Positions 528 through 19,046 of a DNA stretch of 64,000 nt are shown here, one piece after another. The DNA lies in the NCBI RefSeq assembly GCF_018881655.1, contig NZ_JACVPX010000001.1, forward strand, positions 186,001 to 250,000, written 5' to 3'. Positions within the stretch are counted from its first letter, which is position 1. The number at the start of each line of letters is the position of its first letter. Both the position numbers and the translations under genes were made by a program. The notes under the pieces are model-generated. The model was not told where the DNA came from, made no database searches, and saw only the letters and a list, made by a program, of their open reading frames with translations. Origin of the DNA: Polynucleobacter sp. Tro8-14-1. GTDB taxonomy: Bacteria; Pseudomonadota; Gammaproteobacteria; Burkholderiales; Burkholderiaceae.

Positions 528-593
528 TTCACATTGAAAATGACTCAAAACAAATTTATTTTTAACCTCATTACTATTTATTAAGAGAACATC

Positions 594-1658
594 ATGGCTT
601 TAGTATCTTTAAGACAACTCTTGGATCATGCTGCTGAAAATGGTTACGGCCTGCCAGCATTTAACGTGAACAACTTAGAGCAAGTAACGGCGATTATGGA
701 AGCAGCAAATGAAGCTGACTCCCCTGTCATCATGCAAGCTTCTGCTGGTGCACGTAAATATGCTGGTGAGGCGTTCCTGCGCCATCTGATTTCTGCTGCG
801 GTTGAGGCTTATCCACATATTCCGGTAGTGATGCACCAAGACCACGGTCAAAGTCCAGCAGTGTGTATGGCTGCGATTAAGAGTGGCTTTACCAGTGTGA
901 TGATGGATGGCTCCTTAGAGGCCGATGGTAAAAGTGTTGCTAGCTACGAGTACAACGTAGACGTATCCAAAGAAGTGGTGAAGTTCTCTCACTCGATTGG
1001 AGTTACGGTTGAGGCTGAATTAGGTGTATTGGGCTCACTAGAGACCATGCAAGGTGATAAAGAAGACGGTCATGGCGCTGACGGCAAGATGACTCGTGAG
1101 CAATTGCTGACTGACGTTGAGCAGGCTGCTGATTTTGTGAAGGCTACTCAGTGCGATGCCTTAGCAATTGCGATCGGTACTAGCCATGGGGCATACAAGT
1201 TCACTAAAAAGCCGACGGGCGATATTTTGGCAATCGATCGCATTAAAGAAATTCATGCGCGCATACCTAATACGCATTTGGTAATGCATGGTTCTTCTAG
1301 TGTTCCACAAGAGTTGCTTGCTGAGATCCGTGAATTCGGCGGTGATATGAAAGAAACTTACGGTGTTCCGGTTGAAGAGATTCAAGAGGGCATTAAGAAT
1401 GGCGTTCGTAAGATCAATATCGATACGGATATCCGCTTGGCAATGACCGGTGCAATTCGTCGTTACTTTATTGAAAATCCAAGCAAGTTTGACCCACGCG
1501 ATTATTTGAAGCCAGCCCGTGAAGCCGCCAAGAAGGTTTGTATTGCACGCTTCCAGGCCTTTGGTTCTGCAGGTCAAGCCTCCAAAATTAAACCGATTTC
1601 TTTAGAGAAGATGGCTGAGCTATATAAGAGCGGCAAATTAACTCAAATTGTGAAGTGA
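594..1658 (+). CDS. fba: Class II fructose-1,6-bisphosphate aldolase
   Basis: 354 aa; [35 protein letters not shown] zinc-site motif, [15 protein letters not shown]. Confidence 0.95.
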
Positions 1659-1665
1659 TTTAAAT

Positions 1666-2565
1666 ATGCCTGCTTTGTACGCTACCTCTATTAAGTCATT
1701 ACCTTTGTTGTCCAAGGGTAAAGTGCGTGATGTTTATGCATTAGATGACAACAAGTTGCTGATGATTACTACCGACCGTCTTTCTGCGTTTGACGTAGTG
1801 ATGGGTGAGCCCATTCCTGAGAAGGGTGTAGTTCTCAATCAAATGGCCAATTTTTGGTTTGATAAATTGGCTGCAGTGATTCCTAATCATTTGACTGGCA
1901 TTGATCCAGCTACTGTAGTGGCAGCGGATGAGATTAGCCAAGTCAAAGGTCGTGCGGTAGTTGCTAAGCGCTTAAAGCCCATTTTGGTTGAGGCAGTGGT
2001 CCGTGGTTACTTAGCTGGTAGTGGCTGGAAAGACTACAAAGAAACTGGCAAGGTTTGCGGCATTGCTTTGCCGGAAGGTTTAGAGAATGCCCAGAAATTA
2101 CCTGAGCCTATTTTTACTCCTGCTGCTAAAGCAGAGTTTGGTCAGCATGATGAAAACATCTCATTTGAGAAAGTCATCGAGCTCATTGGTGAAAAGTTAG
2201 CCAATCAAATTCGTGAAGTGAGTATTCGTTTGTACAAAGAGGCTTCTGAATACGCAGCTACTCGTGGAATCATCATTGCTGATACCAAGTTTGAGTTTGG
2301 CTTAGATGCCAATGACCAACTGGTGTTGATGGATGAGATCCTGACAGCCGACTCTTCTCGTTTTTGGCCTGCAGAGACCTACTATGTAGGCTCTAACCCA
2401 CCTTCTTATGACAAGCAGTTTGTGCGTGATTGGCTAGAAACCGCCATGGTGGATGGTAAGTTATGGCCTAAAACAGCCCCTGCACCGCAATTGCCAGCAG
2501 ATGTGATTGAAAAGACTGCCCAAAAGTATCGTGAAGCGCTTACCCGCCTTACTGAGACTTCTTGA
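1666..2565 (+). CDS. purC: Phosphoribosylaminoimidazole-succinocarboxamide synthase
   Basis: [37 protein letters not shown] is the SAICAR synthase signature; followed by purE/purK. Confidence 0.96.
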
Positions 2566-2614
2566 GTCAGGGATAATAGAGTCCTTAATGGTTATAAGGC
2601 ATTTGGAGAGGTAA

Positions 2615-3109
2615 ATGAGTAAGAAGCCAATCGTCGGAATAGTGATGGGATCCAATTCAGATTGGGACACCATGCAGCACGCCGCTCAAATGCTTGAGCA
2701 ATTCGGCATTGCTCATGAGGCAAAAGTACTCTCCGCACACCGCATGCCAGATGACATGTTTCAGTACGCTGAAAAAGCGCAGGCGAATGGTTTGCAAGCC
2801 ATCATTGCTGGTGCAGGTGGCGCAGCTCATCTACCAGGCATGCTCGCCTCAAAAACGATTGTTCCCGTTTATGGCGTACCTGTCGCTAGTAAATATTTGC
2901 GTGGAGAAGATTCTCTCTTTTCTATTGTGCAGATGCCTAAAGGTATTCCGGTTGCTACTTTTGCGATTGGTGAAGCCGGCGCAGCAAATGCTGCCTTGCA
3001 TGTGATTGCAGGTTTAGCTTTGCATGATGCTGATTTAGCAAAGCGCTTAGAAGATTTCCGTGCCAAGCAGTCTGATGCTGCACGCTCAATGAATTTGCCG
3101 GGATATTAA
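2615..3109 (+). CDS. purE: N5-carboxyaminoimidazole ribonucleotide mutase
   Basis: VGIVMGSNSDWDTMQHAAQMLEQFGI, SAHRMPDDM, GAGGAAHLPGM motifs. Confidence 0.96.
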   Translation: MSKKPIVGIVMGSNSDWDTMQHAAQMLEQFGIAHEAKVLSAHRMPDDMFQYAEKAQANGLQAIIAGAGGAAHLPGMLASKTIVPVYGVPVASKYLRGEDSLFSIVQMPKGIPVATFAIGEAGAANAALHVIAGLALHDADLAKRLEDFRAKQSDAARSMNLPGY

Positions 3110-3113
3110 TTAC

Positions 3114-4298
3114 ATGGCAGATCGTATGGAACCCATTTTGCCGGGTTCATATTTAGGAATTTTAGGTGGCGGTCAATTGGGGCGGATGTTTACTCAAGCC
3201 GCTCAAGCGATGGGCTACAAGGTTTGCGTGCTCGACCCTGGCTCTGATAGTCCTGCAGGCTCTATTGCTGAAAAATTTATTCAAGCTGACTACACTAATA
3301 GTGCCGCTTTAAAAGAGATGGCTGCACTATGTTCATCAGTGAGTACTGAGTTTGAAAATGTTCCCGCTCAAGCTTTGGATGAGTTGGAGTCTTTGGGTGT
3401 ATTTGTGGCGCCACGCAGCAGTTGCGTGTCTCTTGCCCAAAATCGTATTGCTGAGAAAAATTTCTTAGCCACTTGGAAGTCAGAGACCAATATTGGCCCA
3501 GCTCCCAACTTTGTGATTGAGCATGAGGCTGATATTGCCCATGCTCCAAAGGAGCTCTTCCCTGGAATCTTGAAGACTGCTCGAATGGGTTATGACGGCA
3601 AAGGTCAGGCTACTGTTTACAGTGCAGATGAATTGACTACTGCATGGAATGAGTTCGGGCGCGTGCCTTGTGTTTTAGAAAAGCGCATGGAATTAGATTT
3701 TGAAGTGTCAGCTTTGGTAGTGCGTGGTTATGACGATGCTGTAGTAGCCTATCCAGTGGCCCAAAATATCCATCGTGACGGTATTTTGCATACCTCGACT
3801 GTGCCAGCCCCTTCACTGAAGCCTGCTCAGGAAAAGAAAATCATTGATGCAGCCAAGGCGCTGATTCGGAAGATCGATTACGTTGGTGTTCTTTGCGTAG
3901 AATTCTTTGTGCTGAAGAACGGCGACATCGTGGCTAATGAAATCGCTCCACGCCCTCATAATTCCGGCCACTACACCATGGATGCTTGTGTGAGCAGTCA
4001 GTTTGAGCAGCAAGTCAGAGCAATGGCAAGATTGCCTCTAGGTGATACACGTCAGCTTGCTCCGGTATCCATGTTGAACTTGCTTGGAGACCTTTGGTTT
4101 GAGGGCAGCGAAGACCAGCCAAAAGAGCCTGCCTGGAATAAAGTACTAGCTCATCCAGATGCAAAGTTGCATTTGTATGGAAAGTCTGAGCCACGCATGG
4201 GCAGAAAAATGGGTCATATCAACTGTTTGGGTGAAGCTCTTAATGAGGCACGTCAAAACTGTGCAGCTGTTGCTGCTGAATTAGGGATTGAGCCCTAG
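3114..4298 (+). CDS. purK: N5-carboxyaminoimidazole ribonucleotide synthase
   Basis: ATP-grasp protein; LGILGGGQLGRMFTQAAQAMGYKVCVLDP, EIAPRPHNSGHYTMDAC; directly after purE. Confidence 0.96.
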   Translation: MADRMEPILPGSYLGILGGGQLGRMFTQAAQAMGYKVCVLDPGSDSPAGSIAEKFIQADYTNSAALKEMAALCSSVSTEFENVPAQALDELESLGVFVAPRSSCVSLAQNRIAEKNFLATWKSETNIGPAPNFVIEHEADIAHAPKELFPGILKTARMGYDGKGQATVYSADELTTAWNEFGRVPCVLEKRMELDFEVSALVVRGYDDAVVAYPVAQNIHRDGILHTSTVPAPSLKPAQEKKIIDAAKALIRKIDYVGVLCVEFFVLKNGDIVANEIAPRPHNSGHYTMDACVSSQFEQQVRAMARLPLGDTRQLAPVSMLNLLGDLWFEGSEDQPKEPAWNKVLAHPDAKLHLYGKSEPRMGRKMGHINCLGEALNEARQNCAAVAAELGIEP

Positions 4299-4300
4299 AA

Positions 4301-5407
4301 ATGTCCGCAGACAGTGCCCACTTGCAATCTTCTGCAGTGATTAATGAGGCAGTACAAACCTTGCGTGATGGCGGATTAGTTGCGTTCCCTACTGAGACCG
4401 TTTATGGCTTGGGCGCGGATGCTAAAAATCCTGAAGCGATTAAGAAAATCTTTACCGCTAAGGGTCGCCCATCAAATCACCCCCTAATTGTTCATTTAGC
4501 TGCGCCAGATAAATTTGATCAAGCTCAAGTCGACTGGGTTGCGCTATTGGCACCGTGGGTAAGAGATTTATCCGAAGAAGCCTTAAAGCTCATTAATGCC
4601 TTTTGGCCAGGACCATTAACCCTGGTCTTCAAGAAAGATAAAAGTGTTTTAAATGAACTGACTGGCGGCCAAGATACGGTAGCGATTCGGGCTCCTTCTC
4701 ATCCTGTTGCACAGGAGTTATTACGTAAATTTAAAGGCGGAGTTGTTGCGCCATCAGCCAATCGCTTTGGTAAGGTATCGCCGACTAGTGCTGCCGACGT
4801 CCGTAATGAGTTCGAGGGTATGTTGGATTTAATGATTTTGGATGGTGGCGATTGTGAAGTCGGTATCGAGTCAACCATCATTGATTTGTCATCTGGCGAT
4901 AAGGCTGTGCTACTCAGACCCGGCGCAATCACTCCAAGTGAAATTTTTACCAAGACAGGTGTAAAGGTTTATCAGCCTGGAGAAGTAAAAGGGAATGAAG
5001 CGCCCAATGAAGCAACGGCAGATCTACCAAGGGTATCTGGAAGTCTCAAAGCCCATTACGCACCAACTACGCCTTTGCGCCTATATGCCCCGGGTCGTGT
5101 CTTGGATGCCTTGACTGAATATCCAGATATTAAATCGCGCGTTGCTGTAGCGGTGTGGGATTCAGAATCCTCCTTAAGCGAAGATGGGCATCCTTCGGCC
5201 CACTTTGAGGAGGTTGAGGTTCCAAGCGATAGCGGTGCCTTTGCGAGTCGGCTATATCGCTCCTTGCGTGATTTAGATCAGCAAGGTTGGGATTTGATTT
5301 TGTTCCCTGAACCGCCAGCGGGCGAGGAGTGGGACGGCGTTAGAGATCGTCTTCAGCGCGCATGCTTTGGTTCTGGCCCATCTTCAAGCAGCCACGATAG
5401 CAACTGA
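4301..5407 (+). CDS. L-threonylcarbamoyladenylate synthase (Sua5/YwlC/YrdC family)
   Basis: GGLVAFPTETVYGLGADAKNPEAIKKIFTAKGRPSNHPLIVH; 368 aa Sua5-type length with C-terminal domain. Confidence 0.92.
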   Translation: MSADSAHLQSSAVINEAVQTLRDGGLVAFPTETVYGLGADAKNPEAIKKIFTAKGRPSNHPLIVHLAAPDKFDQAQVDWVALLAPWVRDLSEEALKLINAFWPGPLTLVFKKDKSVLNELTGGQDTVAIRAPSHPVAQELLRKFKGGVVAPSANRFGKVSPTSAADVRNEFEGMLDLMILDGGDCEVGIESTIIDLSSGDKAVLLRPGAITPSEIFTKTGVKVYQPGEVKGNEAPNEATADLPRVSGSLKAHYAPTTPLRLYAPGRVLDALTEYPDIKSRVAVAVWDSESSLSEDGHPSAHFEEVEVPSDSGAFASRLYRSLRDLDQQGWDLILFPEPPAGEEWDGVRDRLQRACFGSGPSSSSHDSN

Positions 5408-6882
5408 TCGTGCGCCTCTAGACCCTTCCAAGCATTGGGGTGGTTGATGAATGAAGTCACCGCATACATCTTTCCAGATTTACTCATTACATAACCTGAG
5501 ATAGCTCGCACATCTGCAAGAGAACCGGTTTTAATTCTGGCTTCTGGTTTTTTCTTCAGATGTAAAAACTTGCGTAGTTGAACCATTAAGCGATTGCGCA
5601 TCGTGCCATCGGTACCTGCAATTGGTAGGCTGTTATATAAAATATCACCCACTGGTAAATTACGAGCAGTGAGCAAGAGCTGATTCATTTGACTGGCAGA
5701 GATTGCTTCGTTGCGAGATAGCCCAGAGCCATTCTCAATCACCAGCCCCTGAAAGTCCAAACCATTTTGTTTGAGCCAACTCTGAATCACTAACTCACCA
5801 TTGGCAGTTGTTGCTGGCTTACCCATTTTCTCTAAAGCCATAGTCAAAAGAACTTGGCGTGCCATGACGTTATTTGAGTACTTGTTGATGTCTAAGACAT
5901 CATCGGCAAGTTTGCTGCCTTCAAATTGCAAAAGAAGTCGGGCGGCTAAAGGAACTGAACCATCTTTACCGATAGGAGCTTGTGCCCAGCTGCCACCAGC
6001 TAATTCCCAAGCGGCAGCAAAGCCTTGCGTTAGAAAGGTATTGGCGTCAAGCGCAACAACGTTAAAGTTCACTCCCTTACAGGAGCTTGGGAACGCCCCA
6101 GAGAACTGTGCAGTTAAAGGCTGATCGGTATTGGTGACACCTTCCGGATCTAAATTAAAGCGGATATTGCTTTTCCAGTTATCGCATGAGCGATCGACCA
6201 GCTGCATTTGGTTGGATACCTTTAGCTGGGAGAGGGATGGGGTGTAACTAATGTCAATAAAATCCGCAGTGCGTGACTTACCTAGTTGAAACGACAAAGT
6301 TCTAAATGCATAGAGCAGAGGATCTGGCGGAACGTTGTATGCACGCAGAGCTTCGCCATCAATAGTATTTTGCTCCATGACATTAGCCGCATAAGCACTG
6401 CGATCAAAGAATAGATTGCCATCAATCTTCTGGATACCCAGACCTTGAAGGTCCTTCATCATCTTAGCTAACTCTTCCGGAACAAGCTTGGGATCACCAG
6501 TTCCCTGTAAATATAAATTACCTTTCAGAGCTCCCTGACGAATAACACCATCGGTATAGACATTAGTGCGCCAACGATATTGAGGACCTAAGATGTCTAA
6601 ACCAGAAAGCGTTGTTAATAACTTCATCGTTGAAGCGGGGTTCATTGGATCGCCACCGCGCCAATCTAAAACTTTCTTAGCTACATTCTTTCCGGGGCGA
6701 CCGGGTTCGATCTCTAGAACTGAAATACTTACCGTATCAAGAGGAATTTGATTGCGCTCGAGGCTACTCGCTACGGATGGTGGAATTACTGGGGATGCAG
6801 TCTCGCCGGCAAAGGCTAAAGAACTAGCCGTCCAAAGGAGGATTGCGATAAAAGCAGATGGGCGAAGAGGAGAAAAACGCAT
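5353..6882 (-). CDS. dacB: D-alanyl-D-alanine carboxypeptidase/endopeptidase (PBP4, S13 family)
   Basis: NPASTMKLLTTLSGLDILGPQYRWRT (SxxK), YSNNVMARQ (SxN), KTGSLADVRAISGYV (KTG); signal peptide. Confidence 0.93.
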   Translation of the reverse strand: MRFSPLRPSAFIAILLWTASSLAFAGETASPVIPPSVASSLERNQIPLDTVSISVLEIEPGRPGKNVAKKVLDWRGGDPMNPASTMKLLTTLSGLDILGPQYRWRTNVYTDGVIRQGALKGNLYLQGTGDPKLVPEELAKMMKDLQGLGIQKIDGNLFFDRSAYAANVMEQNTIDGEALRAYNVPPDPLLYAFRTLSFQLGKSRTADFIDISYTPSLSQLKVSNQMQLVDRSCDNWKSNIRFNLDPEGVTNTDQPLTAQFSGAFPSSCKGVNFNVVALDANTFLTQGFAAAWELAGGSWAQAPIGKDGSVPLAARLLLQFEGSKLADDVLDINKYSNNVMARQVLLTMALEKMGKPATTANGELVIQSWLKQNGLDFQGLVIENGSGLSRNEAISASQMNQLLLTARNLPVGDILYNSLPIAGTDGTMRNRLMVQLRKFLHLKKKPEARIKTGSLADVRAISGYVMSKSGKMYAVTSFINHPNAWKGLEAHDQLLSWLLEDGPEPKHAR

Positions 6883-6913
6883 CCCCCATAGGATAAACCC
6901 ACCGCATCAAAGA

Positions 6914-9340
6914 TTAAAGCTTTGCATATTGAGATTGATACCTAGTAATAATTAGATTTTGGTCCTCCAGTAATTGAATAAAGGTGGTAATTCGAGCATC
7001 TAAATTCTTCTCTTGCTCCAGGACCTCACATGCCCTAGTAAAGTTTTTGGCATTGAGGAGCTGAGCCCCTCCTTTGACTTTATGAACCATGTTTCTGAAG
7101 GCGCCTTCATCTACGGCTTCATTTCTTAGGGTGAGTAGGGTCTCATCATGCACCTTTTTAATTTCTTCCAAGATCACCAGAATGTACTCTGGGCTATTTC
7201 TGAGGAGGTTTCCAAAGGCATCAAATGAATACTCCTCCAGACCTCCAGTTTGAGTTGTAGTCTCAGTTAATTCTTCGACTTGGAAATAGCGTGACAGCTC
7301 ATTCTCTAAAGTCATGAGACTTAAAGGTTTGATCAGGACACCATTCATGCCCGCCTCCAAGAATTGATGGCGTGAATCTAGGGCATAGATATCTGCAGTA
7401 ATGCCGATGATGATGAGATCTTGATTGCCTGTATTACGTATGTGCTTGGCAAGCTCTGAACCCTGCATGCCTGGGATAGATTGATCGGTTAGCAGAAGAT
7501 CAAAATGCCGTTGACTGATGAGATCCAGAGCTGTGGTGGCGTTATCGCAAACCGATACTTCAATCCCTAAGGCTTGAAGTTGAAGCGAGATAATTTGGCG
7601 ACTTGCAGCATGATCTTCAACAACTAATGCTTGTAATGAGGACTCATTATTTTGAGCATGCTTGGAGACTAGCTTTCTGGATATATTGCTATGTTCAGGT
7701 CTTGAGGCTCTGTTTGCAGCAATGCTGGTGCGTGGAAATGCAACGCAAAAATGAATATTGCTACCAAAGCCAGGTGCGCTCTCAAAGTAAAGTTGGCTGT
7801 TCATGGAGGTAACTAAGTGGTTGGTAATGGTAAGGCCAAGACCAGTGCCATTCGCTTGTTCGGTATTGCCTGGTATTTGCTCAAAAGCTTGGAGTGCTAT
7901 GGCAATCTCTTCTGTACCCATGCCAACACCGGTATCAATGACTCTGAATTCAACTAATTGTCCCGCATGATCATCTGCCAGCACGCTGATAGAGAAATAG
8001 ATTTCACCATGATCAGTGAACTTAATAGCATTACTAATCAAGTTCTGCAGTATTTGACGTAGACGCAAAGAATCTAACAATAAAACTTCTGCAATGCGTG
8101 GATCTTTGGAGGTATATAGCTTGAGACTCTGCCTATGGGCAACCGTTGAGAATGCCGAATCGATGTCATCAATCAAAGCATTGAGATTACAAGGCTCAAT
8201 ATTGAGTGTGAGCTTGCCTGCCTCAATCTTTGAAAGATCCAAAACCTGGTTTAGGATTCCCAAAAGAGATTCTGCTGATGAGTGTGCGCTCTTCAGTAAA
8301 GTTTTTTCATTTGCAGGTAGGGAGCTGCTGAGCAATAACTCTTGCACCCCCAAAATGGCATTCATTGGCGTGCGAATTTCATGGCTCATGGTGGCCAGGA
8401 AGGCAGACTTTGCGGCGTTTGCATTTTCTGCCTGCTCTTTCGATGAAATAAGATGTTTCGCTTCTTGTTTTTGAATTGTTTGTCTCTGATGCATGCGCCA
8501 AAGCAAGGTAGAGCCTATCAGTAGGATTGCCAAAGTGGAGAGCCAAGGTAAATGGTTGGGTGGGGATGAGTGGCCTCTTTCAAAAGTACACACGTTGATG
8601 TTAAAAAGATCTCGTGATGCGATTGGATCTAGATTATTGAGAAACTGCTCAAGTACTCCATGCAAAGCTTCATCTTGATTCGAGATAAGCCAGCGATATT
8701 CAAAGGGCTCTCTACTGTAAAGCCCGTCAACCTGTAACTTGTCTGCGTTTAATTTCTGAATGAGTTGTTGCGCAAGACGAAGCGGTAAGACAAGCGCTTC
8801 AATATCGTTTTTGAGGAGATCAAATATTAATTTTTCCGCATGGCCGGATACGCTGGCTTGGGGGTGATTGGGTATTGGTGGATTTTCAAAGCCACGGTCA
8901 AAGTAGGCGATATTAATTGGCTCAATAGGCGCATCGTTTTTGGACCGTTTAGTCAGAATAGCGTCATGCCCCCAAAAGATTGCTTCTGATAAGGACCCAA
9001 ATTTCAGATACTCATCATCTATAGCGGGCGGATCAATGATGAAATCCACCTCTCCATTGGCTAGTTGCTCAAGTCCCTCCTGATCACTCTTACGCCACGT
9101 CGGTAAAAACTCTTGGTGGGTAAATTCACCAAGTTTTCTTAGAAAGCTATGGAAAACTCCAGATTCACCCTTTTCATGCACATCTAAGTAAGGCGCATAT
9201 TTTTCATGAATACTAAAACGTACTATGGGATGGGCATCGATCCACCGTTGCTCTGCTGGGTTCAGTAAGTTCGCATAGGCATTGCTTAATATCCCATTGA
9301 ATAGGATAAAAACGGCAATACGGGTGATGGACCGACGCAT
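6914..9340 (-). CDS. BvgS/EvgS-like hybrid sensor histidine kinase (periplasmic SBP_bac_3-like domain, TM, HisKA, HATPase, REC, HPt)
   Basis: Signal peptide; N-terminal solute-binding-like domain; TM LPWLSTLAILLIGSTLLW; H-box ATMSHEIRTPMNAILG; N/G boxes NLISNAIKFT, DTGVGM, GTGLGL; REC DLLLTDQSIPGMQGSEL; HPt-like MVHKVKGGAQLLN. Confidence 0.9.
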   Translation of the reverse strand: MRRSITRIAVFILFNGILSNAYANLLNPAEQRWIDAHPIVRFSIHEKYAPYLDVHEKGESGVFHSFLRKLGEFTHQEFLPTWRKSDQEGLEQLANGEVDFIIDPPAIDDEYLKFGSLSEAIFWGHDAILTKRSKNDAPIEPINIAYFDRGFENPPIPNHPQASVSGHAEKLIFDLLKNDIEALVLPLRLAQQLIQKLNADKLQVDGLYSREPFEYRWLISNQDEALHGVLEQFLNNLDPIASRDLFNINVCTFERGHSSPPNHLPWLSTLAILLIGSTLLWRMHQRQTIQKQEAKHLISSKEQAENANAAKSAFLATMSHEIRTPMNAILGVQELLLSSSLPANEKTLLKSAHSSAESLLGILNQVLDLSKIEAGKLTLNIEPCNLNALIDDIDSAFSTVAHRQSLKLYTSKDPRIAEVLLLDSLRLRQILQNLISNAIKFTDHGEIYFSISVLADDHAGQLVEFRVIDTGVGMGTEEIAIALQAFEQIPGNTEQANGTGLGLTITNHLVTSMNSQLYFESAPGFGSNIHFCVAFPRTSIAANRASRPEHSNISRKLVSKHAQNNESSLQALVVEDHAASRQIISLQLQALGIEVSVCDNATTALDLISQRHFDLLLTDQSIPGMQGSELAKHIRNTGNQDLIIIGITADIYALDSRHQFLEAGMNGVLIKPLSLMTLENELSRYFQVEELTETTTQTGGLEEYSFDAFGNLLRNSPEYILVILEEIKKVHDETLLTLRNEAVDEGAFRNMVHKVKGGAQLLNAKNFTRACEVLEQEKNLDARITTFIQLLEDQNLIITRYQSQYAKL

Positions 9341-9346
9341 GCTGAA

Positions 9347-9970
9347 TTAGCTTTCGATAATGTTGTTCATACGACAGAACAAAATCAAGTCTGCAATATT
9401 GTTAATGCCCAGCTTGTCAAAGACTCTGGTCTTATAAGTAGCTACTGTCTTATTGCTGATATGTAGCATTTCAGAGATTTGTTGGTTTGAGTTCCCTTTG
9501 CCCAGATATTTCATAACCTGTAACTCACGATCAGAAATTAACGCAAGCTTATCGTTGTCACTTAATGAGCTATTGCCATTTTTGCCATGAGTGAAAAAGT
9601 TATAGCCTTGGGATATGGCAACGCAGGCGGCTAGGATGACATCTGCACCTGCAGTTTTATTTACAAAACCATGTCCACCTAATGAGCGCACTCTCCCGCC
9701 ATAAACAGCCTCGTCCATACTGGAAAGAACCAGCATTCGAACTTCGGGATACATTAATCCGATACGGCGTATAACATCAAAGCCATCCGTCTTGGGCATA
9801 TCGAGATCCAAGATCACCATATTGGGGTTCACCTCTTTCATGGACCTAAGGCACTCCTCTCCATTCTGAGCTTGCCCTGCGATCTCAAATAGCAACTGGT
9901 CCTGCAACATACTTTTAAGAGCCATCAGCATTGCCGGATGGTCATCTACCAACATCACGCGTTTTCTCAT
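9347..9970 (-). CDS. NarL/LuxR-family response regulator (BvgA/EvgA-like)
   Basis: REC domain MLVDDHPAM...VILDLDMPKTDGFDV...LSSMD...VNKTAG; LuxR HTH SDRELQVMKYLGKGNSNQQISEMLHISNKTVATYKTRVFDKLGI. Confidence 0.93.
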   Translation of the reverse strand: MRKRVMLVDDHPAMLMALKSMLQDQLLFEIAGQAQNGEECLRSMKEVNPNMVILDLDMPKTDGFDVIRRIGLMYPEVRMLVLSSMDEAVYGGRVRSLGGHGFVNKTAGADVILAACVAISQGYNFFTHGKNGNSSLSDNDKLALISDRELQVMKYLGKGNSNQQISEMLHISNKTVATYKTRVFDKLGINNIADLILFCRMNNIIES

Positions 9971-10818
9971 TACTTGTCTCCGTTTTGGTTTGGGTGTTGA
10001 TGAGGGTGCAGCGAAAAAATGGCTTTAGCGATACGGCTATCGTTAATCTGCAGCATCTGATGGCGGCTTACAGGCGACATCATGAGACCACCATAGGAAT
10101 GGTCGGCAATCAAAGTGGAGGCATTTTCTAAATCTTTTACTAATCCAATATTGCTGGCATAAATTTGTGTAGGTGAGTAGGGTGATTGCCTGAGTTGAGA
10201 AAGGGCATCACTTGCCATCTCACGCTCACGCATTTGACTCATATCAATATGAACACCTTCCAATTGCATCTCCGTGATCCACTGCAACTCTTCAATGCTT
10301 CCGGTGAATGTGAGGAAATGTAGTAATACACCAAGCCGTCGCAAACGAAGTAATCCTTCTTTGCAAGCATCAGCGCTGTCGGGCTCAGGAATAGTTTGAA
10401 TGCCGATACTGACCAAGCCCACTGGTAGACGTGAGTTCAGAATCAGCTCACTCATGGCATCCACGTAGCCGCTTGACGCTATGGCATACGTTGGTATTGG
10501 CAAAATTCCAGGAATAAAACGACCACTGCGATACCAATAGGCAATGGTGTCTAGGCCTTCCATAAAAAGGCGTAGCAATTGCATATCAGAGGTAGTCAGT
10601 AATGGTCTAAATAAAGATCCTGTCAGTTTGGTTCCCTTACAGTTAAAAATGGGTTCATGACTAATCGCTTGTCGTTTAGACCAGGATTGGTGTTCTTCAA
10701 GGGCTTGGTTACTAAGGCCAAGCCAGGGATCGCCACAGGCGTCTCGTACTTCCTGGAAGGGTTTGTTCTTCCATGCCTTTACAAGCGTGTACAGCCGGGA
10801 TTTCGGGCTCATCAGCAT
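9970..10818 (-). CDS. Degenerate EAL-domain protein, probably non-catalytic
   Basis: EAL-like layout: ISHEPIFNCKGTKLTGSLFRPLL where yQPI...vGaEALlRw is expected; SGRFIPGILPIP; LPVGLVSIGI; LRRLGVLLHFLTFTGSIEELQWITEMQLEGVHIDMS where DDFGTGYSSL...lKID is expected. EAL, DDFGTG and K of KID are substituted. TAATG overlap with the response regulator start. Confidence 0.65.
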   Translation of the reverse strand: MLMSPKSRLYTLVKAWKNKPFQEVRDACGDPWLGLSNQALEEHQSWSKRQAISHEPIFNCKGTKLTGSLFRPLLTTSDMQLLRLFMEGLDTIAYWYRSGRFIPGILPIPTYAIASSGYVDAMSELILNSRLPVGLVSIGIQTIPEPDSADACKEGLLRLRRLGVLLHFLTFTGSIEELQWITEMQLEGVHIDMSQMREREMASDALSQLRQSPYSPTQIYASNIGLVKDLENASTLIADHSYGGLMMSPVSRHQMLQINDSRIAKAIFSLHPHQHPNQNGDK

Positions 10819-10874
10819 TCTCCAATCGGTGACTATCCAGTCTAGGCAGGACGGATTGGAGCGGTAAGGGCTTT

Positions 10875-10910
10875 AGGCTGATTTATCTGTAGGAATTGAC
10901 CTACCAGCCT
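10875..10910. repeat. Nested inverted repeat upstream of the EAL/RR/HHK cluster
   Basis: Outer arms AGGCTG (10875-10880)/CAGCCT (10905-10910); inner arms GTAGG (10889-10893)/CCTAC (10900-10904). Confidence 0.7.
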
Positions 10911-10916
10911 GTCCCT

Positions 10917-10922
10917 ATTATA
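10917..10922 (-). promoter_or_regulatory. Putative -10 box (TATAAT on minus strand) for the EAL/RR/HHK cluster
   Basis: Minus strand TTTAGCCTATTTTTATAATAGGGACAGG; perfect TATAAT, weak -35 candidate about 17-18 bp upstream; lies inside the small inverted repeat CCTATT-ATAAA-AATAGG (10914-10930). Confidence 0.45.
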
Positions 10923-10962
10923 AAAATAGGCTAAATCCTTAAAGAATTTATGGTGATCCGCC

Positions 10963-10993
10963 CTTGAAATCCAGGGAATCAGACCTATATAAT
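10963..10993 (+). promoter_or_regulatory. groESL promoter with overlapping sigma70-like and sigma32-like boxes
   Basis: TTGAAA (10964-10969), 18 bp spacer, TATAAT (10988-10993); also CTTGAAA (10963-10969), 14 bp, CCTATAT (10984-10990). Confidence 0.7.
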
Positions 10994-11019
10994 CAGCACT
11001 CCCTACATGCGAGTGCTAA
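10993..11019 (+). promoter_or_regulatory. CIRCE element (HrcA operator)
   Basis: TCAGCACTC-N9-GAGTGCTAA; one mismatch to TTAGCACTC-N9-GAGTGCTAA; upstream of groES. Confidence 0.93.
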
Positions 11020-11128
11020 AGAGGCGATTTATACCTAAATAACCCTTGGCTTCCGTGTGAAGAGATTATAAAGCATTGATTTATATAGTTTATTTAAATA
11101 GTTAACACTTACTAACATAGGAGAAGAG

Positions 11129-11419
11129 ATGAATTTGCGTCCCTTACATGATCGCGTAATCATCAAGCGTTTAGATCAAGAATCAAAAACTGCTTCCGGA
11201 ATCATCATTCCTGACGCTGCTGCAGAAAAACCTGATCAAGGTGAAGTATTGGCAGTAGGCCCAGGTAAACGTGATGACAGCGGCAAATTAAACGCACCTG
11301 ACGTCAAAGTAGGCGATCGCGTGTTGTTTGGTAAATATGCAGGTCAAACAGTAAAAGTTGACAGCGAAGAACTCATCGTGATGCGTGAAGACGACATCAT
11401 GGCTGTTGTACAGAAGTAA
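11129..11419 (+). CDS. groS: Co-chaperonin GroES
   Basis: [47 protein letters not shown]. Confidence 0.98.
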
Positions 11420-11432
11420 TTTCGGTATTTAA

Positions 11433-13097
<1,665 letters not shown>

Positions 13098-13137
13098 TAG
13101 CCGTTACTTTCCTCAGCCATCTGGCTGTAGAAATAAG

Positions 13138-13168
13138 AGCGCCTGGTTCAAAAGACCAGGCGCTTTTT
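13138..13168 (+). terminator. Rho-independent terminator after groEL
   Basis: AGCGCCTGGT-TCAAAAG-ACCAGGCGCT followed by a T run. Confidence 0.9.
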
Positions 13169-13218
13169 ATTTATAGGAGTAAGCTGTACCCAACATTACC
13201 ACTGGAACGGGCGTCAAG

Positions 13219-13953
13219 ATGACTGGTCGCAATCAAGCAACTCTCCTCATTTCAGCGGGTTTACTCTTACTGAGCTCCACTCTTCTTTGCGGGACTTCAC
13301 TCGCTCAATCAGCTGACTCTCAGCCAGTATTTCAGAAAAGCGTCTCAAATCTACGTAATCAGCGTTATTGCGAAGTTCTGGTAGGCAAGCGAGCTTGGCT
13401 CAATTTGGAAGTAAAGGTATTTAATACGCAAGGGCTTAATCTTTGCCCTGAAGCCCAGTGGAAGACTTTGACCAAGGAATCTATTGAGAAGTCTTTTGAT
13501 GCCTCATTTGTTTTGTTAAATGGTCCTCGCTATTGGACTATGGATGAAATACAAGCGGCAGGAACTACTGTCAATGACGTAAAAGAATCTTTTGGTGGCA
13601 TCGAGATGAATTTGCGAGCAACTGTGCAAGTGAGTTTGCTTAAGCAATTGATGGGTAGTAAGCAGTACAGCCCAAATGAAGTTACCCGCACTACCAATTT
13701 TGTATATAGAGCCGGTAGTGCTGTATACGAGCTTACCTCTCCCGCAGGAGAGGTTTATGTTATGCAGTCGTACTCACAGATTGTGAATCCTGCACTCAGT
13801 ATGAAAGATCTACCGGTACTGAGTGAGCAGTTGAAATTACCCGCTGGTTGGACTTACCGAAGCCGCGTACTCGATCAAGACCTTTCTTTGGTAGTCAATG
13901 GCATTGCCTATGTACTGCAGGACAATTTACTCAATAGCTACCAGAGAAGATAG
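13219..13953 (+). CDS. Hypothetical secreted protein
   Basis: 244 aa ORF with a hydrophobic N-terminal segment and AQS-type cleavage site (LLISAGLLLLSSTLLCGTSLAQS); no recognised domain. Confidence 0.75.
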   Translation: MTGRNQATLLISAGLLLLSSTLLCGTSLAQSADSQPVFQKSVSNLRNQRYCEVLVGKRAWLNLEVKVFNTQGLNLCPEAQWKTLTKESIEKSFDASFVLLNGPRYWTMDEIQAAGTTVNDVKESFGGIEMNLRATVQVSLLKQLMGSKQYSPNEVTRTTNFVYRAGSAVYELTSPAGEVYVMQSYSQIVNPALSMKDLPVLSEQLKLPAGWTYRSRVLDQDLSLVVNGIAYVLQDNLLNSYQRR

Positions 13954-13966
13954 TTTGCACGGCAGC

Positions 13967-14758
13967 TTATTCCATTAGAGTTTGAGCTCTCAATAAGTCT
14001 GCGTTAAAGGAGTCGTACGGAAATAATTCGTTCGGGAACTCTAATGCGAAGATCACATAGAGAGCGAAGCCCATCAGTCCAAGGTAGATAAAAGTTAAAA
14101 ACCAATCTTCTTCATTCTTGACTGCCATAGCATAGCCGCTTAAGAGTGCGCTAATAGATAGTAGGGCAAATAAGAAGCGCTCAAGAATTACAGGGGGGTG
14201 ATGTCTTGCATTCAACATTCCATCCCTCAAGACTACCGTGAGATTATCGGCTTGGGGTCTCAAGATCTTGTCTGCCAATTCCCTGTTGCCAATGGGCGCG
14301 CGAGGAATACTCAGCATCATTAATTCATTAAACTCATTTAACTTATTGCCTAGGCGAGTGATGTTTTCATTCAAGTCGTCGAATGTATTAACCTCTTTGT
14401 ACAAAGCAAGACGATCTGCAAGAATTACTTTAAGAGAGTTGTGTACTTCAATCTGATCTTTTGGGCTAAGGTACTTGCTCGATTGGTAGACTTGGCTAAT
14501 GGCATCTGCTTGTGCGCGTATGAGGCTAATGCGCTTATCAAAATGCTCATTTGCACCCGAGAATGTAAAACCGAGAACCAGTGCCGATAATCCAAAGATG
14601 GAAGCTGCCAAAGAATCTCGAACAATTACCTTATCCGTGCGAAGCAGGCGGTATCTCCCAAACATCCAGCCTATCAATAAGAATGCCAGGATAGAGGTAA
14701 AAAATATTAGGAGGGCATCTTTAACAATATTTAGGTGATTCCCAACGAAATTTGGCAT
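13967..14758 (-). CDS. Multi-pass membrane protein, DUF4239-like
   Basis: TM segments at both ends, central SALVLGFTFSGANEHFDKRISLIRAQADAISQVYQ, as in DUF4239 (bestrophin-like) proteins. Confidence 0.65.
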   Translation of the reverse strand: MPNFVGNHLNIVKDALLIFFTSILAFLLIGWMFGRYRLLRTDKVIVRDSLAASIFGLSALVLGFTFSGANEHFDKRISLIRAQADAISQVYQSSKYLSPKDQIEVHNSLKVILADRLALYKEVNTFDDLNENITRLGNKLNEFNELMMLSIPRAPIGNRELADKILRPQADNLTVVLRDGMLNARHHPPVILERFLFALLSISALLSGYAMAVKNEEDWFLTFIYLGLMGFALYVIFALEFPNELFPYDSFNADLLRAQTLME

Positions 14759-14810
14759 AGCAAGCTCTTATAAGATGGTTTCGCTTTAATTAAGGAGTTT
14801 GCTTAGTGTA

Positions 14811-14836
14811 ATAAAAAACCGCCCGAAGGCGGTTAA
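14811..14836 (-). terminator. Rho-independent terminator for the pnt operon
   Basis: Minus strand: AACCGCC-TTCG-GGCGGTT followed by a T run. Confidence 0.9.
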
Positions 14837-14861
14837 TTATTTGATGATTCTTGACTCAGGC

Positions 14862-16229
14862 TTATTCAACCGCCTTGACCATCTCTTCAACCACCTTCTT
14901 CGCATCACCGAAGACCATCATGGTCTTATCCATATAGAAGAGCTCGTTATCTAGGCCGGCATAACCAGCTGCCATAGAGCGCTTGTTCACGATGATAGTT
15001 TTGGCTTTAAATGCTTCCAAGATCGGCATGCCAAAAATTGGGCTACCTGGAGTGCGTGCAGCAGGGTTCACCACGTCATTCGCACCAAGGACTAACACTA
15101 CGTCAGCCTGACCAAAGTCGCTATTGATATCTTCCATCTCAAATACTTGATCGTATGGAACTTCAGCTTCAGCCAAGAGTACGTTCATATGACCAGGCAT
15201 ACGGCCTGCCACTGGGTGAATCGCGTATTTCACAGTCACGCCATGATGAGTTAACTTTTCAGTCAATTCTTTGAGGGCATGTTGAGCGCGAGCCACTGCC
15301 AAGCCGTAACCTGGAACAATGATTACAGTGTCAGCATTTTCCATGAGGAACGCCGCATCTTCTGGTGAACCTGTTTTGTAATTCTTAGGGCCACCATCAT
15401 CGCCACCGCCGGCAGCAGCTTCAGCGCCAAAGCCGCCGAGCAATACAGCCAGAATGGAACGGTTCATTGCCTTACACATGATGTATGAAAGAATCGCACC
15501 GGATGAGCCTACGCAAGCACCCGCAATAATCAACACTGGGTTGTTTAAGGTGAAGCCAATACCAGCCGCTGCCCAACCAGAATAACTGTTCAGCATTGAT
15601 ACAACCACTGGCATATCAGCGCCACCGATAGGGATGATCAAGGTCACGCCCAATACCAAAGCAACGGCACACATTGCCAAGAAAGCTGCGTGGCTATCAC
15701 CCATGTAATAAGCAATACCAGCGCCAACCATTGAGACGGCCAAAATCAAATTCAGCAAATGTTGACCAGCGAAAGTAACTGGCTTACCACTGACTTTGCC
15801 GGATAACTTACCAAATGCAATGACAGATGCAGTAAAGGTGATGGCACCAATAAACGCGCCAATGAAAAGTTCAATCTTCTGTGCGCCAGTATGGTCATGC
15901 GCTGGATTAAATACAGCAGCAATCGCAATTAATACGGCCGATAAACCTACGAAGGAGTGCATCAAAGCAACCAACTCAGGCATCTTGGTCATTTGCACGC
16001 GCTTAGCAGCGAGCGTACCAATGATGGCGCCAGCCACAACCGCAACACCAATCAACGAGACGACTGGCTTGAAGTCGGGAATGAAGAAAGTGGTGACAAC
16101 GGCTAACAACATGCCAATCATGCCAAAAGTATTACCTTGACGTGAAGTGGTTGGTGAAGACAAGCCACGCAAAGCGAGGATGAACAACACCGATGAAATG
16201 AGATAAGAAATAGCGGTTATGTTTGACAT
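14862..16229 (-). CDS. pntB: NAD(P) transhydrogenase subunit beta
   Basis: GYGLAVARAQHALKELTEKLTHHGVTVKYAIHPVAGRMPGHMNVLLAEAEVPYDQ; multi-TM N-terminal region. Confidence 0.96.
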   Translation of the reverse strand: MSNITAISYLISSVLFILALRGLSSPTTSRQGNTFGMIGMLLAVVTTFFIPDFKPVVSLIGVAVVAGAIIGTLAAKRVQMTKMPELVALMHSFVGLSAVLIAIAAVFNPAHDHTGAQKIELFIGAFIGAITFTASVIAFGKLSGKVSGKPVTFAGQHLLNLILAVSMVGAGIAYYMGDSHAAFLAMCAVALVLGVTLIIPIGGADMPVVVSMLNSYSGWAAAGIGFTLNNPVLIIAGACVGSSGAILSYIMCKAMNRSILAVLLGGFGAEAAAGGGDDGGPKNYKTGSPEDAAFLMENADTVIIVPGYGLAVARAQHALKELTEKLTHHGVTVKYAIHPVAGRMPGHMNVLLAEAEVPYDQVFEMEDINSDFGQADVVLVLGANDVVNPAARTPGSPIFGMPILEAFKAKTIIVNKRSMAAGYAGLDNELFYMDKTMMVFGDAKKVVEEMVKAVE

Positions 16230-16262
16230 AGTTTTGGTCTCTATATAGGTCTTGTTCTAGGT

Positions 16263-16601
16263 TTATTTGGTTCCAGCCGCATCAGCTTTAGGAGCTTTTT
16301 TCTTGAACATTTCAAGCATGCGACGGGTGACCATAAAGCCACCAAAAATATTGATAGACGCGAGAAATACCGCCACTGCACCAATGATGCTGGTGAGAGT
16401 GATTTCATCGCCACCGATAACTTCAGTTTGGAGCAATGCTCCAACGATGATGATGCCGGAGATGGCATTGGTCACCGCCATTAAAGGCGTATGCAATGCT
16501 GGCGTAACGTTCCAAACTACGTGATAGCCAACAAAAATGGCCAATACAAACACAGTAATGTTTTGAACGGTGAGGATGCTTTGAAAGGCAGCGAGATCCA
16601 T
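16263..16601 (-). CDS. pntAB: NAD(P) transhydrogenase subunit alpha part 2
   Basis: 112 aa membrane protein; [40 protein letters not shown]. Confidence 0.94.
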
Positions 16602-16625
16602 AGTGTTTCCTTAGTATTTTTACTA

Positions 16626-17756
16626 TTAGTTTTTGCGGATGGCTTGGCCATCACGACACATTAAGCAAGCAGTAACAATGTCATCATCACTTGGGATGAC
16701 TAAATTGGCTTCTTTATCCACAATGAGTTTCATGAAATCGAGCAAGTTACGTGAGTACAGTGCAGAAGCATCTCCTGCAACCATGCTAGCTAAGTTGGTG
16801 TAGCCAACAATTTTCACGCCATTCACATCAATTACTTTATCTGCTTGCGTTAACGGGCAGTTACCTGAACCGTTATCACCTTTGCCTGCAGCTAAGTCAA
16901 TTACGATCGAGCCTGGCTTCATATTGGCAACAGTATCGCTATGCAAAAGAACAGGTGGCTTACGCCCCGGGATCAATGCAGTGGTAATTACGATGTCGGC
17001 TTGTTGAGCGCGCTCTGCAACCAAGGCTGCTTGACGCTTCATCCAAGCTTCAGGCATTGGGCGAGCATAGCCACCAACGCCTTGGGCAATCTCACGCTCT
17101 TCATCGGTTTCATAAGGAACGTCAACAAACTTGGCGCCTAATGATTCGATTTGTTCTTTCGCTGCTGGGCGCACATCAGATGCTTCAATCACGGCGCCAA
17201 GACGTTTTGCTGTGGCAATGGCTTGTAAGCCTGCAACACCAGCACCCAAGATTAGTATGCGAGCTGCTTTAACAGTTCCTGCAGCAGTCATCAGCATTGG
17301 CATGAAGCGTTGATATTCGTTAGCTGCAACCAATACTGCTTTGTAACCAGCAATGTTTGCCTGGGAAGACAAGACGTCCATGCTTTGTGCGCGTGTTGTG
17401 CGTGGTGCAGCCTCTAAAGAGAATGCAGTAACACCTTGAGCAGCCATGGCTGCAATCATGTCGTTATCAAACGGATCGAGCATGCCCAGAAGAACGGCAC
17501 CGGATTTAATCTGTTTAAGTTCGGCTGCCTCGGGCGCACGTACTTTAAGAACGATCTCTGCACCAAACGCATCTGCAGCGCTACCAATGCTTGCGCCGAC
17601 AGATTCGTATGCGGAGTCAGGTTGACTGGCTTTTACTCCGGCGTCTTTTTGAATGACGACGGTATGACCTTGACCAATTAATTTTTTAACGGTTTCTGGT
17701 GTGGCGGCTACTCGAGTTTCCCCGGGCCTTGTTTCCAGTGGCACTCCTATGCGCAT
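16626..17756 (-). CDS. pntAA: NAD(P) transhydrogenase subunit alpha part 1
   Basis: MRIGVPLETRPGETRVAATPETVKKLIGQGHTVVIQKDAG; Rossmann motif GAGVAGLQAIATAKRLGA. Confidence 0.95.
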   Translation of the reverse strand: MRIGVPLETRPGETRVAATPETVKKLIGQGHTVVIQKDAGVKASQPDSAYESVGASIGSAADAFGAEIVLKVRAPEAAELKQIKSGAVLLGMLDPFDNDMIAAMAAQGVTAFSLEAAPRTTRAQSMDVLSSQANIAGYKAVLVAANEYQRFMPMLMTAAGTVKAARILILGAGVAGLQAIATAKRLGAVIEASDVRPAAKEQIESLGAKFVDVPYETDEEREIAQGVGGYARPMPEAWMKRQAALVAERAQQADIVITTALIPGRKPPVLLHSDTVANMKPGSIVIDLAAGKGDNGSGNCPLTQADKVIDVNGVKIVGYTNLASMVAGDASALYSRNLLDFMKLIVDKEANLVIPSDDDIVTACLMCRDGQAIRKN

Positions 17757-17930
17757 GGCATGTCTCCAAAAGCAAAAATTTATAAAAAATCTATTTTAGT
17801 TAAATAGGGCTCGTTGCGCCTATTTACTCACCCCTAAGTCCTTTTGCTTGGTTTTTGCCCGAAATTCTGTGAAATCAGGCTAAGACTTCTACAATATGGC
17901 CTGTAAGCTTATATTGAATTCTCGCATTTT

Positions 17931-19046
17931 TTGATGATCCCGCTCAATTCTTCCTCAATCCCGTCCTCCCAGCCCAAGAAAGTCGTTATTGGCATGTCTG
18001 GGGGGGTAGATTCGTCGGTGGCTGCCTGGATGCTCAAAGAGCAAGGCTTTGAAGTTATTGGCCTTTTTATGAAAAATTGGGAGGATGACGATAACGACGA
18101 GTACTGTTCTGCTCGTCAAGACTGGCTCGATGTGGTTTCAGTCGCCGATATGATCGGAATAGACGTTGAAGCAGTCAATTTTGCTGCCGAATATCGTGAG
18201 CGCGTATTTGCTGATTTCTTACGCGAGTACGCCGCAGGGCGAACGCCCAACCCCGATGTCTTATGTAATGCCGAAATTAAGTTCAAGGCTTTCTTAGATC
18301 ACTCCATGAGTTTGGGTGCGGATGCTATTGCCACCGGTCACTATGCGCGCGTTCGTCATGAAGGTGGCAGGGTGCAGTTGTTGAAAGCTGTCGATGCCAG
18401 TAAAGACCAGAGTTATTTCTTGCATCGCTTAACGCAGCAACAATTGGCAAATGTGATGTTCCCACTTGGAGAAATTCCAAAAACAGAAGTCAGAAAAATT
18501 GCAGAGCAAATTGGTTTGCACAATGCTAAAAAGAAAGACTCCACCGGCATTTGCTTTATTGGTGAACGTCCTTTTAGAGAATTCTTAAATCGCTATTTAC
18601 CGCGCGTACCTGGCCCGATAAAAACCCCAGAAGGTAAAACAGTTGGCGAGCATATGGGCTTAGCCTTCTTCACCTTAGGTCAGCGCAAGGGTATTGGTTT
18701 GGGCGGCAGTCAAGATGGCAATGGTGACGCTTGGTATGTGGCGCGCAAGGATGTTCCAAATAACACTCTGTATGTAGCGCAAGGCCACGAACACCCGTGG
18801 CTATTGGCTAATCAGCTTGCTGCGATGGATGCCAGTTGGGTTTCTGGTGCTTCACCAACACCCGGAAATTATTCTGCTAAGACTCGTTATCGACAAGCAG
18901 ACTCTGCTTGTACTTTGAGTGCTGGTGCTGAAGCACTAAGCTTCGACTTAAGTTTTCCAGAAGCGCAGTGGGCTGTTACTCCAGGGCAATCTGCTGTCTT
19001 GTATGACGGAGATATTTGTTTGGGTGGCGGAATTATTTCTGCATAA
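17931..19046 (+). CDS. mnmA: tRNA-specific 2-thiouridylase MnmA
   Basis: [50 protein letters not shown]. Confidence 0.97.

Follow-up and report, generated by a model that had tools for sequence, protein, structure and literature searches.

A three-gene signalling locus in Polynucleobacter sp. Tro8-14-1, carried on the 64,000-nucleotide stretch of DNA analysed here (the window), is probably a positively autoregulated phosphorelay operon with a non-catalytic EAL-like protein as its output. We regard the module as a variant of the BvgASR/RocSAR kind in a free-living genus, and the likeness to BvgR lies in its design and in its loss of active-site residues. Beyond what a first-pass annotation of this sequence had described, we found a conserved and apparently self-directed operator ahead of the module, and the EAL protein is probably independent of c-di-GMP.

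The locus comprises three tightly packed, co-directional genes on the minus strand, as originally annotated. The first encodes a class III-like degenerate EAL protein of 282 aa (9970–10818), the second a NarL/LuxR-type response regulator of 207 aa with a GerE DNA-binding domain (9347–9970) and the third a hybrid histidine kinase of 808 aa (6914–9340). The TAATG overlap of 1 nt between the EAL-like and regulator genes and the 6-nt gap between regulator and kinase, both reported previously, are present in the window sequence, and we infer that the three genes are co-transcribed. A dacB-like gene for a D-Ala-D-Ala carboxypeptidase (Peptidase_S13; 5353–6882, minus strand) follows 31 nt downstream of the kinase gene and possibly receives read-through from the module in this lineage; in another lineage it is parted from the module by other genes. 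A CIRCE element with one mismatch (10993–11019, plus strand) belongs to the divergent groESL genes and is a neighbour outside the module; it lies between groES and the EAL-like gene and is kept in the relatives examined.

The order of divergent groESL, module and dacB-like gene recurs across Polynucleobacter, where the module is syntenic in 137 of 151 genomes, and such conservation means that the arrangement is not due to chance. The kinase/regulator/EAL triplet is conserved within this one genus. In samples of other Burkholderiaceae and Burkholderiales, a search with the EAL-like profile detected nothing comparable, although it would not have picked up modules built around another EAL family. 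Most profile matches outside the genus were long open frames; four were short (263–292 aa) and were rejected as modules, there being no tblastn match around them to the module proteins or their neighbours.

Identifying the first gene product required family profiles, because the window copy alone has no EAL match: single-sequence searches returned no EAL match from Pfam or NCBIfam and nothing meaningful from the PDB. Among its relatives, 25 of 34 match Pfam EAL (best 3e-8). Run against the PDB, the profile of the family alignment, which has 34 members, gave 26 matches with E values of 10 or less, the best of them 1.1e-4, and each was judged an EAL or GGDEF-EAL protein; hhalign of the family against canonical Polynucleobacter EAL domains gave 97.2% (E=9e-11). 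An AlphaFold model of moderate confidence (pLDDT 63.6, pTM 0.61), mostly confident over residues 77–244 with the N-terminal 76 residues not resolved, had only EAL-domain structures among its best 50 listed Foldseek matches. Residues 1–22 form a predicted N-terminal helix, in which Y10 and W16 are conserved in the family. Profile similarity and modelled fold together indicate an EAL fold; the first-pass annotation had called this protein a degenerate EAL and let that call depend on profile and structural comparison, and both found EAL similarity. In the genus search, ORFs of 536–544 aa (for example in G007:C5, G080:C1, G047:C5 and G110:C1) also matched the final 33 positions of the EAL profile, weakly but repeatedly; in some genomes they lie near ORFs of 443–449 aa that match profile positions 104–236.

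The degeneracy of this protein is extensive. Thirteen active-site positions, which we take to be numbered as in RocR, were located in the family by combining the hhalign alignment with manual placement. Of these, the window copy keeps R71 and D192 only, having lost the other 11 catalytic or ligand positions, among them the ligand-contact Q, the metal-binding N and both aspartates of loop 6. Hence, it does not carry the catalytic and metal-binding residues of a phosphodiesterase. The 34 family members keep between zero and three of the 13 residues and share near-fixed replacements (E55 in 31/34, H190 in 32/34 and Y242 in 32/34), while the catalytic-base position is a glutamate in five distant copies, consistent with the family having once been active and since decayed. 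The gene is under purifying selection: expressed as Nei-Gojobori medians over non-independent pairs with a dS filter of 0.2–1.2, omega is 0.12 for the EAL-like gene, 0.10 for the kinase and 0.008 for the regulator, the last more constrained than GroEL (0.026).

No GGDEF match was obtained in 47 of the 151 Polynucleobacter genomes, and a match to the EAL-like gene is kept in 43 of these 47, with the exact operator described below in place in 30 of the 43. Absence of GGDEF from incomplete assemblies is weak evidence, but the negative genomes include G004, G080, G081, G104, G107, G110, G119 and G144, all single-contig and at least 99% complete, some single-contig genomes being scored as negative by elimination from the list of positives. 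Retention of the gene where GGDEF is not detectable makes a c-di-GMP-independent role likely, and the effector role first proposed for the EAL protein is unlikely if it is taken to operate through c-di-GMP. That the protein might instead be a non-catalytic c-di-GMP receptor, linking the two-component system to the second messenger, is improbable; the window genome does encode intact GGDEF proteins and degenerate BvgR has been proposed as a c-di-GMP effector (PMC12805831), but the ligand-contact and metal-binding residues named above are gone from the window copy and the gene persists in genomes without detectable GGDEF. One GGDEF match in the window genome (G000:C6:225394-225854) contains several stops and looks broken, and a search of the same genome returned no canonical EAL gene.

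The kinase begins with a signal/transmembrane helix, followed by a Venus flytrap (VFT) domain at approximately residues 28–248, a transmembrane segment, HisKA (H320), HATPase, a receiver (D619) and HPt (H753). Pfam recognizes HisKA, HATPase_c and Response_reg, and scores Hpt at 20.6 bits, under its cut-off of 24.6; each of the 73 family kinases has H320, D619 and H753, which bears out the earlier description of an intact His-Asp-His relay. The periplasmic domain has no Pfam match and folds as a Venus flytrap in the AlphaFold model, its best PDB match by Foldseek being BvgS VFT2 (3mpl, E=2.5e-14), with the EvgS periplasmic domain also among the structural matches; the solute-binding-like domain previously noted is thereby substantiated. 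Only a single VFT fits within residues 28–248, and no PAS domain was found in the window kinase. Kinases at the same locus in other lineages are about 505–586 aa long (one is predicted at 637), leaving no room for a flytrap, and by inspection have transmembrane segments near the N terminus. Input to the system therefore varies, while relay and output stay.

The regulator combines a receiver (Response_reg, E=1.2e-21) with a GerE domain (E=2.7e-18), as expected of the NarL/LuxR type, and D55 is assigned by motif as its phosphoacceptor. Its best NCBIfam model is EvgA, with a score under that model's cut-off, in keeping with the kinship to EvgAS that had been suggested. The recognition helix is nearly invariant, and regulators with a synonymous divergence of approximately 0.9 retain 99% protein identity. 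Conservation this extreme would suggest many targets, and so weaker sites are likely beyond those reached by an exact search.

Alignment of the intergenic region upstream of the EAL-like gene revealed a conserved block, an inverted repeat GTAGG-N4-TTCCTACA with a variable centre, which is the predicted operator (GTAGGTCAATTCCTACA; 10888–10904, minus strand). Just downstream is an AATCAG element (10878–10883, minus strand), similar in most of the operator-bearing promoters seen, and then TAGACT (10839–10844, minus strand), a putative -10 element assigned from spacing. Operator and TAGACT start 60 bp apart in the window, and this distance is kept wherever both were located, including a lineage with a regulator only about 48–60% identical; the operator is centred approximately 52 bp ahead of the -10-like element, or roughly at -63 from the inferred start. 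The arrangement suggests positive autoregulation of the operon, with activation rather than repression, like the -10 assignment itself, read from the spacing.

The exact operator precedes the EAL-like gene in 100 of the 137 genomes that have the gene, as counted from the coordinates of EAL-like genes and exact sites; the 151 genomes together contain 122 distinct exact sites, 22 of them elsewhere. In the window genome this is the only exact copy, and since a reversed-pattern control had more two-mismatch matches than the operator motif itself, the motif is not enriched across the genome. A one-mismatch site in the window genome was rejected as a target because it lies inside an ORF. Some genomes of the window's lineage have a second copy at the end of a ligA-like gene (L261–L268), in most copies some 70 nt ahead of the following gene, although the identity of that gene varies by genome. 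Autoregulation is not universal in the genus: in the lineage with a single-transmembrane kinase, the operator is missing before the triplet and present at other promoters, namely those of an HTH_17 gene (divergent from a sucA-like gene), a gene for a 191-aa unknown protein and a CNNM/CorC gene (divergent from a TonB receptor gene). The copies in that lineage (L251–L260 and L270) constitute a candidate regulon.

Since the same palindrome occurs there away from the triplet, and since its binding by the module's regulator is a prediction, the repeat could belong to another regulator that represses or otherwise controls the operon. We give this little credence, given that the exact site is missing from 13 of the 14 genomes without the EAL-like gene, most of which are without the regulator too, and that the half-sites, TTCCTA, are the core of the BvgA heptad TTTCCTA (PMC4314077), the regulator being EvgA/BvgA-like. 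Co-occurrence, the conserved recognition helix and the BvgA-like half-site all point to the module's own regulator as the probable binder. A literature search for the EvgA box did not return the motif.

Loss of the module is mostly as a unit, for 13 of the 14 genomes lacking the EAL-like gene also lack a close regulator and the exception lies at a contig edge; in G069, dacB comes after groES with a small gene between. Such co-loss, the 1-nt overlap, which suggests translational coupling, and the presence of a single exact site in the window genome would all suit an EAL-like protein that is a dedicated feedback partner (anti-activator) of its own kinase or regulator, the upstream site then serving a homeostatic loop and not an effector circuit. 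We lean against this possibility. Its interaction between EAL-like protein and partner is hypothetical, and in some reduced genomes of endosymbiont type the EAL-like gene is broken and the regulator next to it intact, indicating that the EAL-like gene is dispensable there and can decay first. Decay of the EAL-like gene was seen in L224, L225, L216 and L217, and in three of these (L217, L224 and L225) the regulator is intact. In G035 (L218), an insertion of about 18 kb of foreign-looking genes (585–18990) lies close to the 5' end of the EAL-like gene, and operator, promoter and start codon remain on the groES side; in G145 (L208, L219), a single contig carries groES and the EAL-like gene approximately 34 kb from each other, and the latter appears frameshifted.

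In the autoregulated phosphorelay that we favour, the VFT of the kinase would sense either a small ligand or some condition of the envelope, and so set kinase activity, and phosphate would pass from H320 through D619 and H753 to D55 of the regulator. The phosphorylated regulator would then bind the inverted repeat and so switch on its own operon, whose promoter would depend on an activator. Since the window genome has no other exact site, the chief product under strong control in this lineage would be the EAL-like protein, which would accumulate when the system is on. Having no phosphodiesterase site, this protein would probably act by contact with another, as YdiV and BluF do and as has been proposed for BvgR, most likely upon a transcription regulator and possibly upon that of the module itself. 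More tentatively, a degenerate EAL working without c-di-GMP may be the dedicated output of a two-component system whose regulator binds essentially a single target with high affinity, namely the operon that encodes it.

Comparison with known systems places the module near BvgASR, as the first-pass annotation proposed, but only in part. The two share a VFT phosphorelay kinase, a LuxR-type regulator, TTCCTA half-sites and, beside the two-component genes, an EAL protein that has lost nearly all catalytic residues, BvgR being without 12 of the 13 (PMC11537037). The kinase also has the periplasmic VFT, transmembrane helix and helical linker to HisKA of the BvgS family (by AlphaFold and the Foldseek match to 3mpl), as well as its His-Asp-His phosphorelay, the HPt residue being invariant despite the sub-threshold domain score. 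However, it has one VFT, and other lineages none, where two in tandem have been used to define the BvgS family (PMC5829827), and it differs from BvgS in that no PAS was found; the EAL-like gene is co-directional and leads the cluster, whereas bvgR is convergent and transcribed as its own unit (PMC7250471); and the module is present in genomes without detectable GGDEF.

The RocS1-RocA1-RocR locus of Pseudomonas likewise unites a kinase with an SBP_bac_3 periplasmic domain, a LuxR regulator and an EAL protein (PMC12051241), but RocR, a response regulator of receiver-EAL architecture, is active as a phosphodiesterase, and rocA1 is divergent, whereas the Polynucleobacter protein has neither receiver nor active site. 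In Burkholderia pseudomallei, mrgRS-ORF1 combines regulator, sensor kinase and an adjacent co-directional EAL gene, which differs in following the kinase gene and probably has a transcript of its own (PMC1557856); neither EAL degeneracy nor an operator is known to have been described for it. EvgAS of E. coli provides the best-scoring model for the regulator and a structural match for the sensor, although the periplasmic region of EvgS is larger. We know of no EAL gene in the EvgAS locus. YdiV/RflP and BluF of E. coli are degenerate EALs that contact transcription regulators and have no phosphodiesterase activity (PMC3510510, PMC3509220). Degeneracy is what the Polynucleobacter protein has in common with them; their targets, FlhDC and BluR, set them apart. 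To our knowledge, neither is encoded with a two-component system.

In Bordetella, the way in which degenerate EAL proteins of the BvgR type work, and whether c-di-GMP takes part, is an open question (PMC12805831). Among Polynucleobacter there are free-living relatives that keep such a gene where no GGDEF gene is detectable, and with the predicted operator to hand a single reporter experiment could test the circuit. If the tentative reading of a dedicated, c-di-GMP-independent output is true, BvgR-type proteins can be c-di-GMP-independent effectors.
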